Assembly (NCBI RefSeq): GCF_024347375.1
Contig: NZ_AP025470.1
Location: 2,852,001 to 2,916,000, forward strand
Source of the DNA: Vibrio coralliirubri
GTDB lineage: Bacteria > Pseudomonadota > Gammaproteobacteria > Enterobacterales > Vibrionaceae
DNA: 64,000 nt
Direction: 5' to 3'
Every line of letters begins with the position of its first letter. The stretch's first letter is position 1. The notes beneath the pieces were generated by a model. It did not search any database, was not told where the DNA came from, and was given only the letters and a program-made list of their open reading frames with translations. Positions 34,243-37,837 of this stretch are shown here, one piece after another. The position numbers and the translations under genes were made by a program.

Positions 34243-34339
34243 ATACTTATCGAAATATAATGAAGCTTGTTTATAGTCGAAATTGCTCTAAACATTCGCT
34301 TGCATGAAAGTGTGATAAAGATCTAATCTATAGCCATCA

Positions 34340-34411
34340 GGTGATGGGGTTCCACCTAAGCTTTTGCTTCAACCGCCCGTTCTTTCCGAACAGTGCTAAT
34401 GACTCCTACAG
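34340..34411 (+). promoter_or_regulatory. Fluoride riboswitch aptamer (crcB motif)
   Basis: The stretch GGTGATGGGGTTCCACC at 34340-34356, then AACCGC at 34371-34376, then GCTAATGACTCCTACAGA, follows the fluoride riboswitch pattern step by step; the Pseudomonas syringae one reads GGAGATGGCATTCCTCC, AACCGC, GCTGATGATGCCTACAGA. The first stem is AGGTG/CACCT. Loop bases GGGGTT can pair with GACTCC to form the required pseudoknot. A GTTC/GAAC stem lies between. These RNAs bind fluoride with Mg and usually switch genes on. It sits about 200 nt upstream of the scaffold-GGGtGRT operon. Confidence 0.93.
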
Positions 34412-34415
34412 AATC

Positions 34416-34606
34416 GAAAACAGGTAATACTGTTGGATGTATCGCTATTCCTCCATTTTGAAATGGACTTAGTCTATTAAGACCAAGTTCCATGACGCCT
34501 TTGGATTATCGATACTCAAGATCTGTAGTGAATTAGCCGCACCTCTTCCAACACGTCCTGTTTTCTCAACGCCCTAGGTCTTCAATGACTCTAATAGTGA
34601 GAAAAC
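34416..34606 (+). promoter_or_regulatory. Likely expression platform of the fluoride riboswitch
   Basis: GTTTTCTCA (34560-34568) is the perfect complement of TGAGAAAAC (34598-34606), which holds the ribosome site GAGA just before the ATG at 34610. CCTGTTTTC (34557-34565), overlapping the first arm, is the perfect complement of GAAAACAGG (34416-34424), directly 3' of the aptamer. The two pairings exclude each other, as in riboswitches acting on translation. GATCTGTAG (34520-34528) can also pair with the aptamer 3' end CTACAGAATC (one bulge). No T-run terminator is seen. The model is inference. Confidence 0.6.
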
Positions 34607-34609
34607 ATT

Positions 34610-35302
34610 ATGCACTACTCTTCAGAAATTCAATCAATGTGCCCTATTCAAAGGGGTGATCTACACACTTCAGCACCAATTCCAGTTGAAGGCGCTATGG
34701 TTAGTCCAAAAGATGTCATCGCTATTTCTGGCTTAAGCCATGGCGTCGGCACTTGTGCACCACAACAAGGTGCAGCAAAACTAACGCTGAACGTAAAAAA
34801 CGGCATCATCGAAGAAGCACTAATCGAAACTATTGGTTGTTCAGGCATGACTCAATCAGCCGCGATGGCAGCAGAAATCCTCACCGGAAGAACCATTCTT
34901 GAAGCCCTAAATACTGACTTAGTGTGTGACGCTATTAACGTAGCCATGCGTGAAATCTTCCTGCAATTTGTTTACGGTCGAACTCAATCAGCTTTCTCTG
35001 AAGGCGGTCTAGAAATTGGCGCAGCATTAGAAGACTTAGGTCAAACGCAGCGCAGCCAAGTGGGTACCAGTTACTCAACCGCGGCAAAAGGCGTTCGTTA
35101 TCTAGAGCTTGCAGAAGGTTACGTGACCAAGCTAGCGCTTGATGATCACAGCGAAGTGATTGGCTACGAATATCTCAACCTCGGCAAAATGATGAAGGCG
35201 ATTAACCAAGGCGTGCCAGCGAATGAAGCGGCCGACCTTGCGACAGGGACCTATGGCCGCTTCGATGAAGCCGTGACCACTATTAACCCACGCCAACAGT
35301 AA
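34610..35302 (+). CDS. Iron-sulfur cluster scaffold-like protein (IscU/NifU N-domain type)
   Basis: The product has 230 residues. The middle resembles IscU/NifU scaffolds: GVGTCAPQQGAAKLTLNVKN with Cys49, then ETIGCSGMTQSAAMAAEIL with Cys77, and DLVCDAIN with Cys106. These three cysteines match the cluster ligands of IscU in order; Cys11 is extra. It lacks the IscU LPPVK motif, so it is unlikely to be a normal Isc scaffold. It is followed after 23 bp by a GGGtGRT gene, a recurring pairing in bacteria. The fluoride riboswitch upstream should raise its expression when fluoride is present. The actual function is unknown. Confidence 0.85.
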   Translation: MHYSSEIQSMCPIQRGDLHTSAPIPVEGAMVSPKDVIAISGLSHGVGTCAPQQGAAKLTLNVKNGIIEEALIETIGCSGMTQSAAMAAEILTGRTILEALNTDLVCDAINVAMREIFLQFVYGRTQSAFSEGGLEIGAALEDLGQTQRSQVGTSYSTAAKGVRYLELAEGYVTKLALDDHSEVIGYEYLNLGKMMKAINQGVPANEAADLATGTYGRFDEAVTTINPRQQ

Positions 35303-35325
35303 TTTTGCCAATTTAGAGGAAAGAT

Positions 35326-36315
35326 ATGATGAACACTCAATTTAATGAATCAGTAACTCGCGTATTGGCAGAAATGAACTTCGACTCTTTGGAGCAAGCT
35401 GACCAATACTGTAAAGCCCACAACGTTGATCCAAAAGCGTTAGTAATGGACACCCAACCTATCGCTTTTGAAAGCGCTGCCGACGCTTATATCCTTGGCT
35501 CAGCACTGGCGCTATTTCGTAAAGCCACCAGCGCAGAACAAGCGGCAAACATTATTGGTGAAGGTCTTCAAGCATTCACCAAACCTGGCAGTGTTGCTGA
35601 ACAACGCCAAGTTGGTATTGGACATGGCGCGCTAGCCGCTCGTCTTCTCAATGAAGAGAGCCACTGCTTCGCCTTCCTTGCGGGTCACGAGTCTTTTGCT
35701 GCAGCAGAAGGTGCGATTAAAATTGCGCTAAACGTCAACAAATCACGTCAAAACCCATTGAAAGTGATCTTAAATGGTTTAGGTAAAGATGCGGCTTATC
35801 TTATCTCTCGCATCAACGGCTTCACTTACGTGCGCACTCAATACGATTACCAAACCGGTGAACTTGTTGAAACAGAACGTCGCCGCTTCTCACAAGGCCC
35901 TCGCGGCGACATCTTGTGTTACGGCGCTGATGATGTACGAGAAGGTGTAGCAATCATGCACAGAGAAGAAGTGGATGTCAGTATTACGGGTAACTCAACC
36001 AACCCAACTCGCTTCCAACACCCAGTAGCGGGTATCTACAAAGCAGAACGTACTCGTCAAGGTTTGCCATACTTCTCAGTTGCTTCAGGCGGCGGTACAG
36101 GTCGAACATTGCACCCAGATAACGTAGCAGCAGGTCCAGCGTCTTACGGCATGACCGATACCATGGGCAGAATGCACGCTGACGCGCAGTTCGCAGGTAG
36201 CTCTTCTGTTCCTGCTCACGTAGCGATGATGGGCTTCATCGGCATGGGCAACAACCCAATGGTCGGTGCGACGGTTGCACTGGCTGTGGCTGTGAGCGAA
36301 TCTCAAAACGCATAA
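35326..36315 (+). CDS. GGGtGRT family protein
   Basis: This 329-residue protein carries the name-giving motif GGGTGRT at 255-261 (SVASGGGTGRTLHPDN). It has no signal peptide or clear membrane helix, so it is probably cytoplasmic. Other striking parts are HGALAARLLNEESHCFAFLAG, VILNGLGKDAAYLISRING and a glycine- and methionine-rich end (AMMGFIGMGNNPMVGATVA). AGAGGAAAG lies before the start. It is the second gene of the riboswitch-controlled operon. The biochemical function is not known to me; the partner suggests iron-sulfur chemistry. Confidence 0.88.
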   Translation: MMNTQFNESVTRVLAEMNFDSLEQADQYCKAHNVDPKALVMDTQPIAFESAADAYILGSALALFRKATSAEQAANIIGEGLQAFTKPGSVAEQRQVGIGHGALAARLLNEESHCFAFLAGHESFAAAEGAIKIALNVNKSRQNPLKVILNGLGKDAAYLISRINGFTYVRTQYDYQTGELVETERRRFSQGPRGDILCYGADDVREGVAIMHREEVDVSITGNSTNPTRFQHPVAGIYKAERTRQGLPYFSVASGGGTGRTLHPDNVAAGPASYGMTDTMGRMHADAQFAGSSSVPAHVAMMGFIGMGNNPMVGATVALAVAVSESQNA

Positions 36316-36488: not shown

Positions 36489-36523
36489 AAAATCCGAGTG
36501 TTTCTTTAACACTCGGATTTTTT
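36489..36523 (+). terminator. Hairpin at the transposase start inside the IS
   Basis: CCGAGTGTT-TCTTT-AACACTCGG followed by ATTTTTT ends directly before the transposase ATG at 36524. It can stop transcripts entering from outside. The only purine-rich bases before the ATG (CGGA) are in the stem, so outside transcripts would also be poorly translated. Confidence 0.8.
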
Positions 36524-37837
36524 ATGTTTCTTAGACAAGCCCTTAATCAAGTCCATAACTTCTCTCCAGAACAGCTCTCAGGGTTATCAGACCTGCTGTC
36601 CCCGGAACTCGTCGAACAGTGCCTCCAAGAATCTGGGGTTGCGACTATTCGAAAGCGCAGGTTACCAATGGAAATGATGGTTTGGAGTGTTTTAGGGATG
36701 TCCCTTTACCGTCATTTATCGATGGATAAAGTAGTCTCGCAACTTGATATTCTCCTACCGGGTAAGAAGCCATTCGTCGCACCTAGCGCTGTCATACAGG
36801 CACGTCACCGACTTGGTTCCGACGTTATGGAAGCCGTGTTCAATCACACTCAACGACTTTGGCACCGCAAGACTCCTCATCCCGATTGGCATGGGTTAAC
36901 ACTTCATGCTGTAGATGGTGTTGTGTGGAGAACACCAGACACTAAAAGTAATGATGAGCATTTTAGTAGAACAGGCAATAAAACAACGATATCTGACTAC
37001 CCTCAAGTGAGAATGGTCTGCCATATGGAGCTGACCAGTCATTTACTCAACAGCGCTTCATTCGACTCAGTATCTAAAAGTGAAGTCGACCTTACGATCC
37101 CGCTTATTGAACAATCTCCCTCAAACAGCTTAACTATTTTTGACCGCGGATTTTACGCCTTGGGCTTACTGCATAAATGGCAAACCAGTGGCGATGAAAA
37201 ACATTGGCTGCTCCCATTAAGAAAAGGGGCTCAATACACTGTGTTATCGAAGGTAGGCCGAGGACAAGAGCTCGTTGAGCTCAAGCTATCACCTCAAGCT
37301 CAAAAGAAGTGGGTTGATGCCCCCAAAACTCTCCAAGCTCGTTTAATCACAAAGACGATTAAAGGAAAAGAAGTCCGACTATTAACGTCAATGATAGACA
37401 CGATGAAATATCCTGGTGCTGATATCGCCGAACTATATAGCCATCGTTGGGAAATAGAGTTGGGGTATCGTGAGATGAAGCAATACATGCTTCAGAACCA
37501 ACTTACGTTAAGAAGCAAAAAGCCAGAGTTAGTGAATCAAGAGCTTTGGGGAATGCTGGTTGCTTACAATCTACTGCGGTTCATGATGTGTCAAATGGCC
37601 TATCATCAGAAGTCAGTGATGCCTTATCAAATCGGCTTTAAACAGGCTTCATTATTCCTTGTTGGACAGCTTCAATTATTACCAGCGGTCGCACCGGGAC
37701 GAATCCCAGAAGTAATAAACTACATACTGGATATGTCAGAAAGCTTTGTTTTACCTGAGAGGCGAGAACGAAGTTACCCAAGAGCAGTAAAAAAGAGGCC
37801 TTGTCGCTATGCGACAAGGCCTCCAAGAAGACGCTAA
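36524..37837 (+). CDS. IS4 family transposase
   Basis: The transposase cuts and joins the element ends by DDE chemistry. It has 437 residues and closely resembles the IS4 transposase of E. coli along its length (RKRRLPMEMMVW; FVAPSAVIQARHRLGS). The catalytic residues are Asp131 (HAVDGVVW), Asp207 (FDRGFYALG) and Glu312 in the YREK signature Y305-R308-E312-K319. The C terminus is basic. The frame is intact, so the element may still move. The last codons overlap a strong hairpin at 37795-37823. Confidence 0.96.
   Translation: MFLRQALNQVHNFSPEQLSGLSDLLSPELVEQCLQESGVATIRKRRLPMEMMVWSVLGMSLYRHLSMDKVVSQLDILLPGKKPFVAPSAVIQARHRLGSDVMEAVFNHTQRLWHRKTPHPDWHGLTLHAVDGVVWRTPDTKSNDEHFSRTGNKTTISDYPQVRMVCHMELTSHLLNSASFDSVSKSEVDLTIPLIEQSPSNSLTIFDRGFYALGLLHKWQTSGDEKHWLLPLRKGAQYTVLSKVGRGQELVELKLSPQAQKKWVDAPKTLQARLITKTIKGKEVRLLTSMIDTMKYPGADIAELYSHRWEIELGYREMKQYMLQNQLTLRSKKPELVNQELWGMLVAYNLLRFMMCQMAYHQKSVMPYQIGFKQASLFLVGQLQLLPAVAPGRIPEVINYILDMSESFVLPERRERSYPRAVKKRPCRYATRPPRRR
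37795..37823 (-). terminator. Inward-facing terminator inside the transposase 3' end
   Basis: GAGGCCTTGTCGC-TAT-GCGACAAGGCCTC is a perfect 13-bp stem. On the minus strand it is followed by TTTTTT, so it would stop transcription entering from the right end. It overlaps the codons for the basic tail of the transposase. Confidence 0.78.

Follow-up and report, generated by a model that had tools for sequence, protein, structure and literature searches.

A fluoride riboswitch with an IscU-like/GGGtGRT gene pair as its target in Vibrio coralliirubri

The 64,000-nucleotide (nt) window of the Vibrio coralliirubri genome analyzed here (contig NZ_AP025470.1, positions 2,852,001 to 2,916,000) contains a two-gene operon preceded by a fluoride riboswitch. 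The aptamer of the riboswitch (Rfam family RF01734) occupies positions 34331–34415 of the forward strand. It is followed on the same strand by the genes of an IscU/NifU_N-like protein of 230 amino acids (34610–35302) and of a GGGtGRT protein of 329 amino acids (35326–36315), which belongs to Pfam family PF14057 of unknown function. The closest named relatives of both proteins are from Vibrio, and Aliivibrio fischeri also has entries for both. A preliminary description, made from the sequence, had proposed both the fluoride riboswitch and this gene pair as its target, and the assignment is secure.

The covariance-model match to RF01734 has a score of 47.8 bits, compared to the cut-off of 34 (E-value 3.8e-10 over 64 kb), and spans the full model, positions 1–64. 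It is the sole match at the Rfam gathering level within the window and the single RF01734 match found in the 5.74 Mb genome. The start of the region given previously, 34340, lies in the aptamer but cuts off the first bases of the match. The stem nearest to the 5′ end and a pseudoknot of five pairs, one of them G-U, can form in the window sequence, and one of the four pairs of the second hairpin is non-standard. Among 20 chosen aptamers 95.9% of the cells are paired, compared to 83.6% after shuffling, and none of 500 shuffles reached the observed value. In the pseudoknot, 98.0% of the cells are paired and three of the five pairs have changed on both sides. The above-cut-off score, the conserved stems and pseudoknot with covariation, and the position in a 5′ leader with an expression platform that probably switches are those of an RF01734 member. 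The platform, which is absent from the preliminary description, lies within the 194 nt separating the end of the aptamer match from the first start codon.

The connection between the aptamer and the gene pair is conserved in the genus. The preliminary description had made its proposal dependent on a significant RF01734 match and on finding the aptamer upstream of the pair in related Vibrio, and both tests were passed. Among 196 sampled genomes of the genus, GGGtGRT is present in 86 and an RF01734 match in 103 (above the cut-off in 98). Matching of coordinates placed the aptamer on the same strand, 725–995 nt upstream of GGGtGRT (median 906), in 85 of the 86 genomes. The sole unlinked case, genome G118, is a fragmented assembly with a contig break between the two: the aptamer is positioned 112 nt upstream of the start of the IscU-like gene near a contig end (locus L027), and GGGtGRT is near the end of another contig. 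In 84 of the 85 linked genomes, no fluoride riboswitch above the cut-off was found besides the aptamer of the pair; G112, the exception, has a second one. In the family of G221 (11 genomes), six genomes have both the aptamer and GGGtGRT, and five have neither. In an order-level sample of 295 genomes, where adjacency outside the genus was read by eye from coordinates, GGGtGRT is present in 45, of which 22 carry an upstream aptamer (13 from the same genus, six from family f2, and G249, G269, and G366).

The leaders between the aptamer and the start codon were compared using 82 unique sequences from the fetched loci, from which 30 representatives under 80% similarity were selected. Three pairings recur. 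Element X (34406–34411, CTACAG), the 3′ end of the aptamer, is common to the aptamer and to a helix formed with the downstream anti-aptamer segment TCTGTAG (34522–34528). Element B (34557–34565, CCTGTTTTC) pairs with element C (34597–34606, GTGAGAAAAC), the likely ribosome-binding region, and this helix spans the region just 5′ of the start codon. Element A (34416–34424, GAAAACAGG), positioned right after the aptamer, pairs with the same B. Because A is located in the loop closed by X and the anti-aptamer, the A:B and X:anti-X helices are mutually exclusive, barring a further pseudoknot, and B can pair with A or with C, never with both at once. Free folding of the window leader results in the OFF arrangement, in which B pairs with C (z −3.2). 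Forcing the A:B helix costs 1.8 kcal/mol and increases the openness of the ribosome site from 0.13 to 0.54. Among the representatives, own partners pair more strongly than swapped ones, both in A:B and in X:anti-X (0 of 2000 permutations in either case); the effect is weaker in B:C (5 of 2000). No terminator-like site was found in the window leader. The platform is likely a translational ON switch, and a mechanism of competing helices is well supported by the comparison of leaders; its ligand-driven step is inferred from the known fluoride riboswitch family. Without fluoride, X would pair with the anti-aptamer, A would be looped out, and B would hide the ribosome site by pairing with C. Upon fluoride binding, the pseudoknotted aptamer would retain X, A would capture B, and the ribosome site would open, so that the leader (34331–34609) would switch on translation of the operon.

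The first protein of the operon matches NifU_N (PF01592) with 22.1 bits, compared to the cut-off of 22.0, and residues 39–129 of its predicted structure have the IscU fold, both of which place it in the family. It is a divergent, second PF01592 match in the genome, the canonical iscU being located elsewhere (182 bits). Since its scores are far below the equivalog cut-offs for IscU (TIGR01999, 22.4 of 192.4 bits) and NifU (TIGR03419, 27.4 of 187.9 bits), the protein is called IscU-like rather than IscU. The three conserved cysteines noted previously are C49, C77, and C106, which are invariant in 39 aligned sequences; C11 is nearly invariant. Canonical IscU binds its cluster at positions C37, D39, C63, H105, and C106. 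An hhalign comparison with the genome's own IscU aligned only residues 50–100 of the IscU-like protein, leaving C106 outside; the column of the first IscU cysteine corresponds to Q53, and C49 is four residues before it.

The second protein is a full-length member of PF14057, matching it over residues 8–325 with 560.6 bits (cut-off 27). The two window proteins are 63–73% identical to non-Pseudomonadota aligned sequences of known origin. In each of the 80 loci from named genomes and the 23 loci from the order search (103 of 103, several phyla), the IscU-like gene lies 5′ of GGGtGRT on the same strand. In the named-genome loci, the gap between the genes is longer than 100 nt in five; in L102 and L114 it is about 490 nt and contains another frame. 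The contigs of L113 and L130 start inside the IscU-like gene. Neighboring genes were clustered but not named, and the only genes recurring throughout the 80 loci are the pair itself.

The remaining riboswitches of the genus sample belong to known types. There are 20 further RF01734 matches: eleven precede CLC-type transporters, one crcB (G112), and one enolase (G142), all known fluoride targets, and seven are below the cut-off and were taken as chance. The riboswitch-linked CLC-type transporters (L063, L065–L073, and L082) are from 11 genomes, all of which are among the 16 lacking a CRCB match and all of which lack GGGtGRT. Of the 86 genomes with GGGtGRT, 84 have a CRCB match; that of the window genome is single, located elsewhere, and has no aptamer. 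The second leader of G112, in front of crcB (L064, G112:C1:783500-787000), shares 84–85% identity with gene-pair leaders over 111 nt. Between this leader and crcB there is a decayed start of an IscU-like gene (32% identity over 81 residues, E-value 3e-6, against the set of 39 sequences). The similarity and the remnant indicate that a leader of the gene-pair type came to serve a fluoride exporter family, an apparent re-use of the operon's leader.

Published expression data provide hints about the function of the proteins. A scaffold of the SUF type, which serves under iron scarcity, is expected to increase when iron is short. The accessible parts of the published reports describe the opposite for the pair. 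In Clostridium pasteurianum supplied with iron, GGGtGRT was higher 7.1-fold early and 2.2-fold late, and the NifU-like protein 1.6- to 3.7-fold, as were hydrogenase, aconitase, and pyruvate:ferredoxin oxidoreductase (PMC5395762). In Bacteroides thetaiotaomicron, the pair was lower by 11 to 12.8-fold under iron depletion (PMC10434189). NifU and GGGtGRT proteins were also named within the same shifting group in the rumen (PMC7035244). Expression under iron-replete conditions favors an iron-consuming module over a scarcity scaffold. We are inclined, if only slightly, to believe that the aptamer and helices of the leader switch on translation of the pair in response to fluoride and that the proteins form an iron–sulfur (Fe-S) module sustaining an iron-dependent step under fluoride. 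Acting together, as predicted, the two proteins would consume iron, as an enzyme or a cluster carrier, rather than export fluoride. In the least certain steps of this mechanism, the IscU-like subunit would hold an Fe-S cluster by its invariant cysteines and pass it to, or share it with, the Rossmann-like GGGtGRT subunit.

Several observations weigh against the fluoride-controlled Fe-S module. A search with a model built from the 20 aptamers identified a riboswitch upstream of the pair in only six of the 80 named-genome loci (Vibrio, Aliivibrio, two Shewanella, Photobacterium, and Motilimonas). Rfam's own model agrees for the 16 loci tried, although the Photobacterium match is barely over the cut-off (35.4 compared to 34 bits). 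The 74 riboswitch-free loci include Bacteroidota, Clostridia, Treponema, Collinsella, Succinivibrio, and a member of the Aeromonadales, and are mostly from anaerobes according to their titles. Similarly, 23 of the 45 order-sample genomes with GGGtGRT have no upstream aptamer (15 from family f3, six from f10, one from f21, and G435, in which the gene is split). When scanned with higher sensitivity, neither the six f10 loci, nor the single f21 locus, nor the four f3 loci included out of 15 showed a riboswitch; the same scan recovered the known one in L179. Two of five aptamer measures are not clearly above shuffles (changes on both sides of a pair, 40 of 500; pair types, 491 of 500). The platform was tested only statistically, and a leader's own partner comes out best in its row in 11 of 30 cases for A:B, 3 of 30 for X:anti-X, and 2 of 30 for B:C, perhaps because close kin have common sequences. 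The X:anti-X helix is weak in both f2 representatives (L189 and L191; −9.3 and −5.7), and the usual B was not seen in the first window for four of the 30 representatives (L205, L216, L225, and L248); the permutation test included these four, using a wider window. The IscU-like protein does not reproduce the canonical IscU ligand set, as only C77 meets an IscU cysteine in the hhalign alignment, and its structural model is of moderate quality (pTM 0.52). No known fold convincingly matches the predicted GGGtGRT structure, in which the invariant GGGTGRT region is of low confidence. Conserved loops modeled with low confidence are at residues 256–297 of GGGtGRT and 127–149 of the IscU-like protein.

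The absence of the riboswitch from 74 of 80 loci and 23 of 45 genomes makes fluoride control look like a late addition that tells little about the chemistry of the pair, whose basic job would not be fluoride-specific. In a tree of 61 GGGtGRT proteins, 22 of them with a riboswitch, the riboswitch label changes twice, compared to a mean of 18.2 in 500 shuffles, none of which was as low. Most simply, the riboswitch was gained once, in the single gammaproteobacterial clade where it was seen, and lost once, in the f10/f21 branch. The gene pair is far older than its riboswitch control. Flammeovirga proteins are at the base of the riboswitch-bearing clade. The pair proteins of this genus of Bacteroidota (P0105, P0107, and P0210–P0214) are nearer to the gammaproteobacterial clade than those of other Bacteroidota, which suggests gene transfer. 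Bacteroides ihuae, a control genome, matches both RF01734 and PF14057.

Four other explanations were considered. The preliminary description had suggested that the pair repairs or replaces a metal center damaged by fluoride; the pair would then be an accessory Fe-S scaffold rebuilding or supplying clusters for fluoride-hurt enzymes. The IscU fold of the model fits this role, as does the canonical iscU match, which makes the IscU-like copy an extra one. Genes of suf and of iron uptake were raised by sodium fluoride in anaerobic Escherichia coli, according to the accessible part of the report (PMC10100675). However, the pair is lower, not higher, under iron shortage in both anaerobes described above, no Fe-S assembly partner travels with it across the 80 loci, and most of these loci have no riboswitch, so that a repair role now appears improbable. 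Somewhat less probable still is that the pair serves as a metabolic Fe-S enzyme in place of a magnesium enzyme blocked by fluoride, as a riboswitch-driven spare enolase may. The enolase target in G142 and the strong conservation of both proteins, as enzymes would show, are in line with such a bypass, but no substrate, convincing fold match, or conserved neighbor speaks for it. It is very unlikely that fluoride itself or a fluorinated compound is what the pair acts on, for instance through binding of metal-fluoride complexes. Its position under a fluoride-type riboswitch in one clade would fit such a role, but the pair is widespread without the riboswitch and iron-dependent in two anaerobes. 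Although no wet-lab record of this leader was found, an accidental aptamer–gene link or an RNA sensing something else is scarcely credible, given the linkage in 85 of 86 genomes, the covariation in aptamer and platform, and the same-genus aptamers preceding genes of fluoride-exporter families.

So far, the fluoride regulon has mostly been interpreted in terms of export, pH balance, and metabolic enzymes, among them enolase and pyrophosphatase, according to the accessible part of PMC11139923. No report of the IscU-like/GGGtGRT pair as a fluoride riboswitch target was found in the accessible parts of the literature searched, a scope outside which the founding riboswitch paper lies. An extension of the Fe-S module reading is possible, though doubtful: Vibrio and its relatives may have a non-export arm of fluoride defense, in which a new kind of two-subunit Fe-S protein, induced by fluoride and taken over from anaerobic metabolism, guards an essential iron-dependent step while fluoride ties up metals. 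In most carriers, this would be the sole riboswitch-controlled response to fluoride. A pair of unknown function is the only RNA-controlled fluoride target found in nearly all linked genomes of the genus, and its control makes it possible to test directly whether bacterial iron chemistry is poisoned by fluoride. It also provides a physiological handle on the GGGtGRT and NifU-like proteins, whose strong conservation extends over several phyla and which turn up in the accessible parts of gut and rumen studies.

A possible promoter precedes the aptamer on the forward strand (34300–34329), with TTGCAT (34300–34305) and TAATCT (34324–34329) separated by 18 nt. It is not among the hits of a consensus scan, which gives another site at 34250–34277. 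Similar spacing, with a GTGTGAT or ATCACAC element, was seen by eye in a number of 32 upstream regions. The element reads GTGTGAT at 34310–34316 of the window and, inverted, ATCACAC in other species; it is found repeatedly between the possible −35 and −10 sequences and is possibly the site of a second regulator. Behind the operon is an IS4-family transposase (36489–37837), with a terminator-like hairpin just 5′ of it. GGGtGRT proteins of the genus form two subtypes (L033–L037 and L038–L062), which differ in the reach of the match toward the N-terminal end of PF14057; leaders of L033–L037 have a GACGTC- or GACTTC-type 3′ strand of the aptamer, and most others GACTCC. GGGtGRT is split into two frames in G435 (C13:342738-343105), and the IscU-like gene of L118 (3177-3941) has a partial match, in its 3′ part only. 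GGGtGRT proteins of 379–411 amino acids (P0060, P0095, P0106, and P0115) contain internal repeats of conserved pieces and are perhaps assembly artifacts.

The window GGGtGRT protein resembles the rest of PF14057 in being a full-length member, and differs in its location under a fluoride riboswitch; no function for the family was found in the accessible parts of the literature consulted. The IscU-like protein has in common with IscU/NifU_N scaffolds the fold of its model residues 39–129, and cysteines 49, 77, and 106 are invariant in its subfamily. In contrast to these scaffolds, it has about 100 extra residues on the C-terminal side, altered cysteine positions, and a tie to GGGtGRT. The riboswitch has the full-length above-cut-off aptamer, the pseudoknot, and the 5′ leader position of the crcB motif, whereas its target is not an exporter, antiporter, enolase, or pyrophosphatase. 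Many crcB RNAs are overlapped by terminators, according to the accessible part of PMC2864571, whereas the platform in the window appears to be translational and to operate by a three-way exchange of helices.
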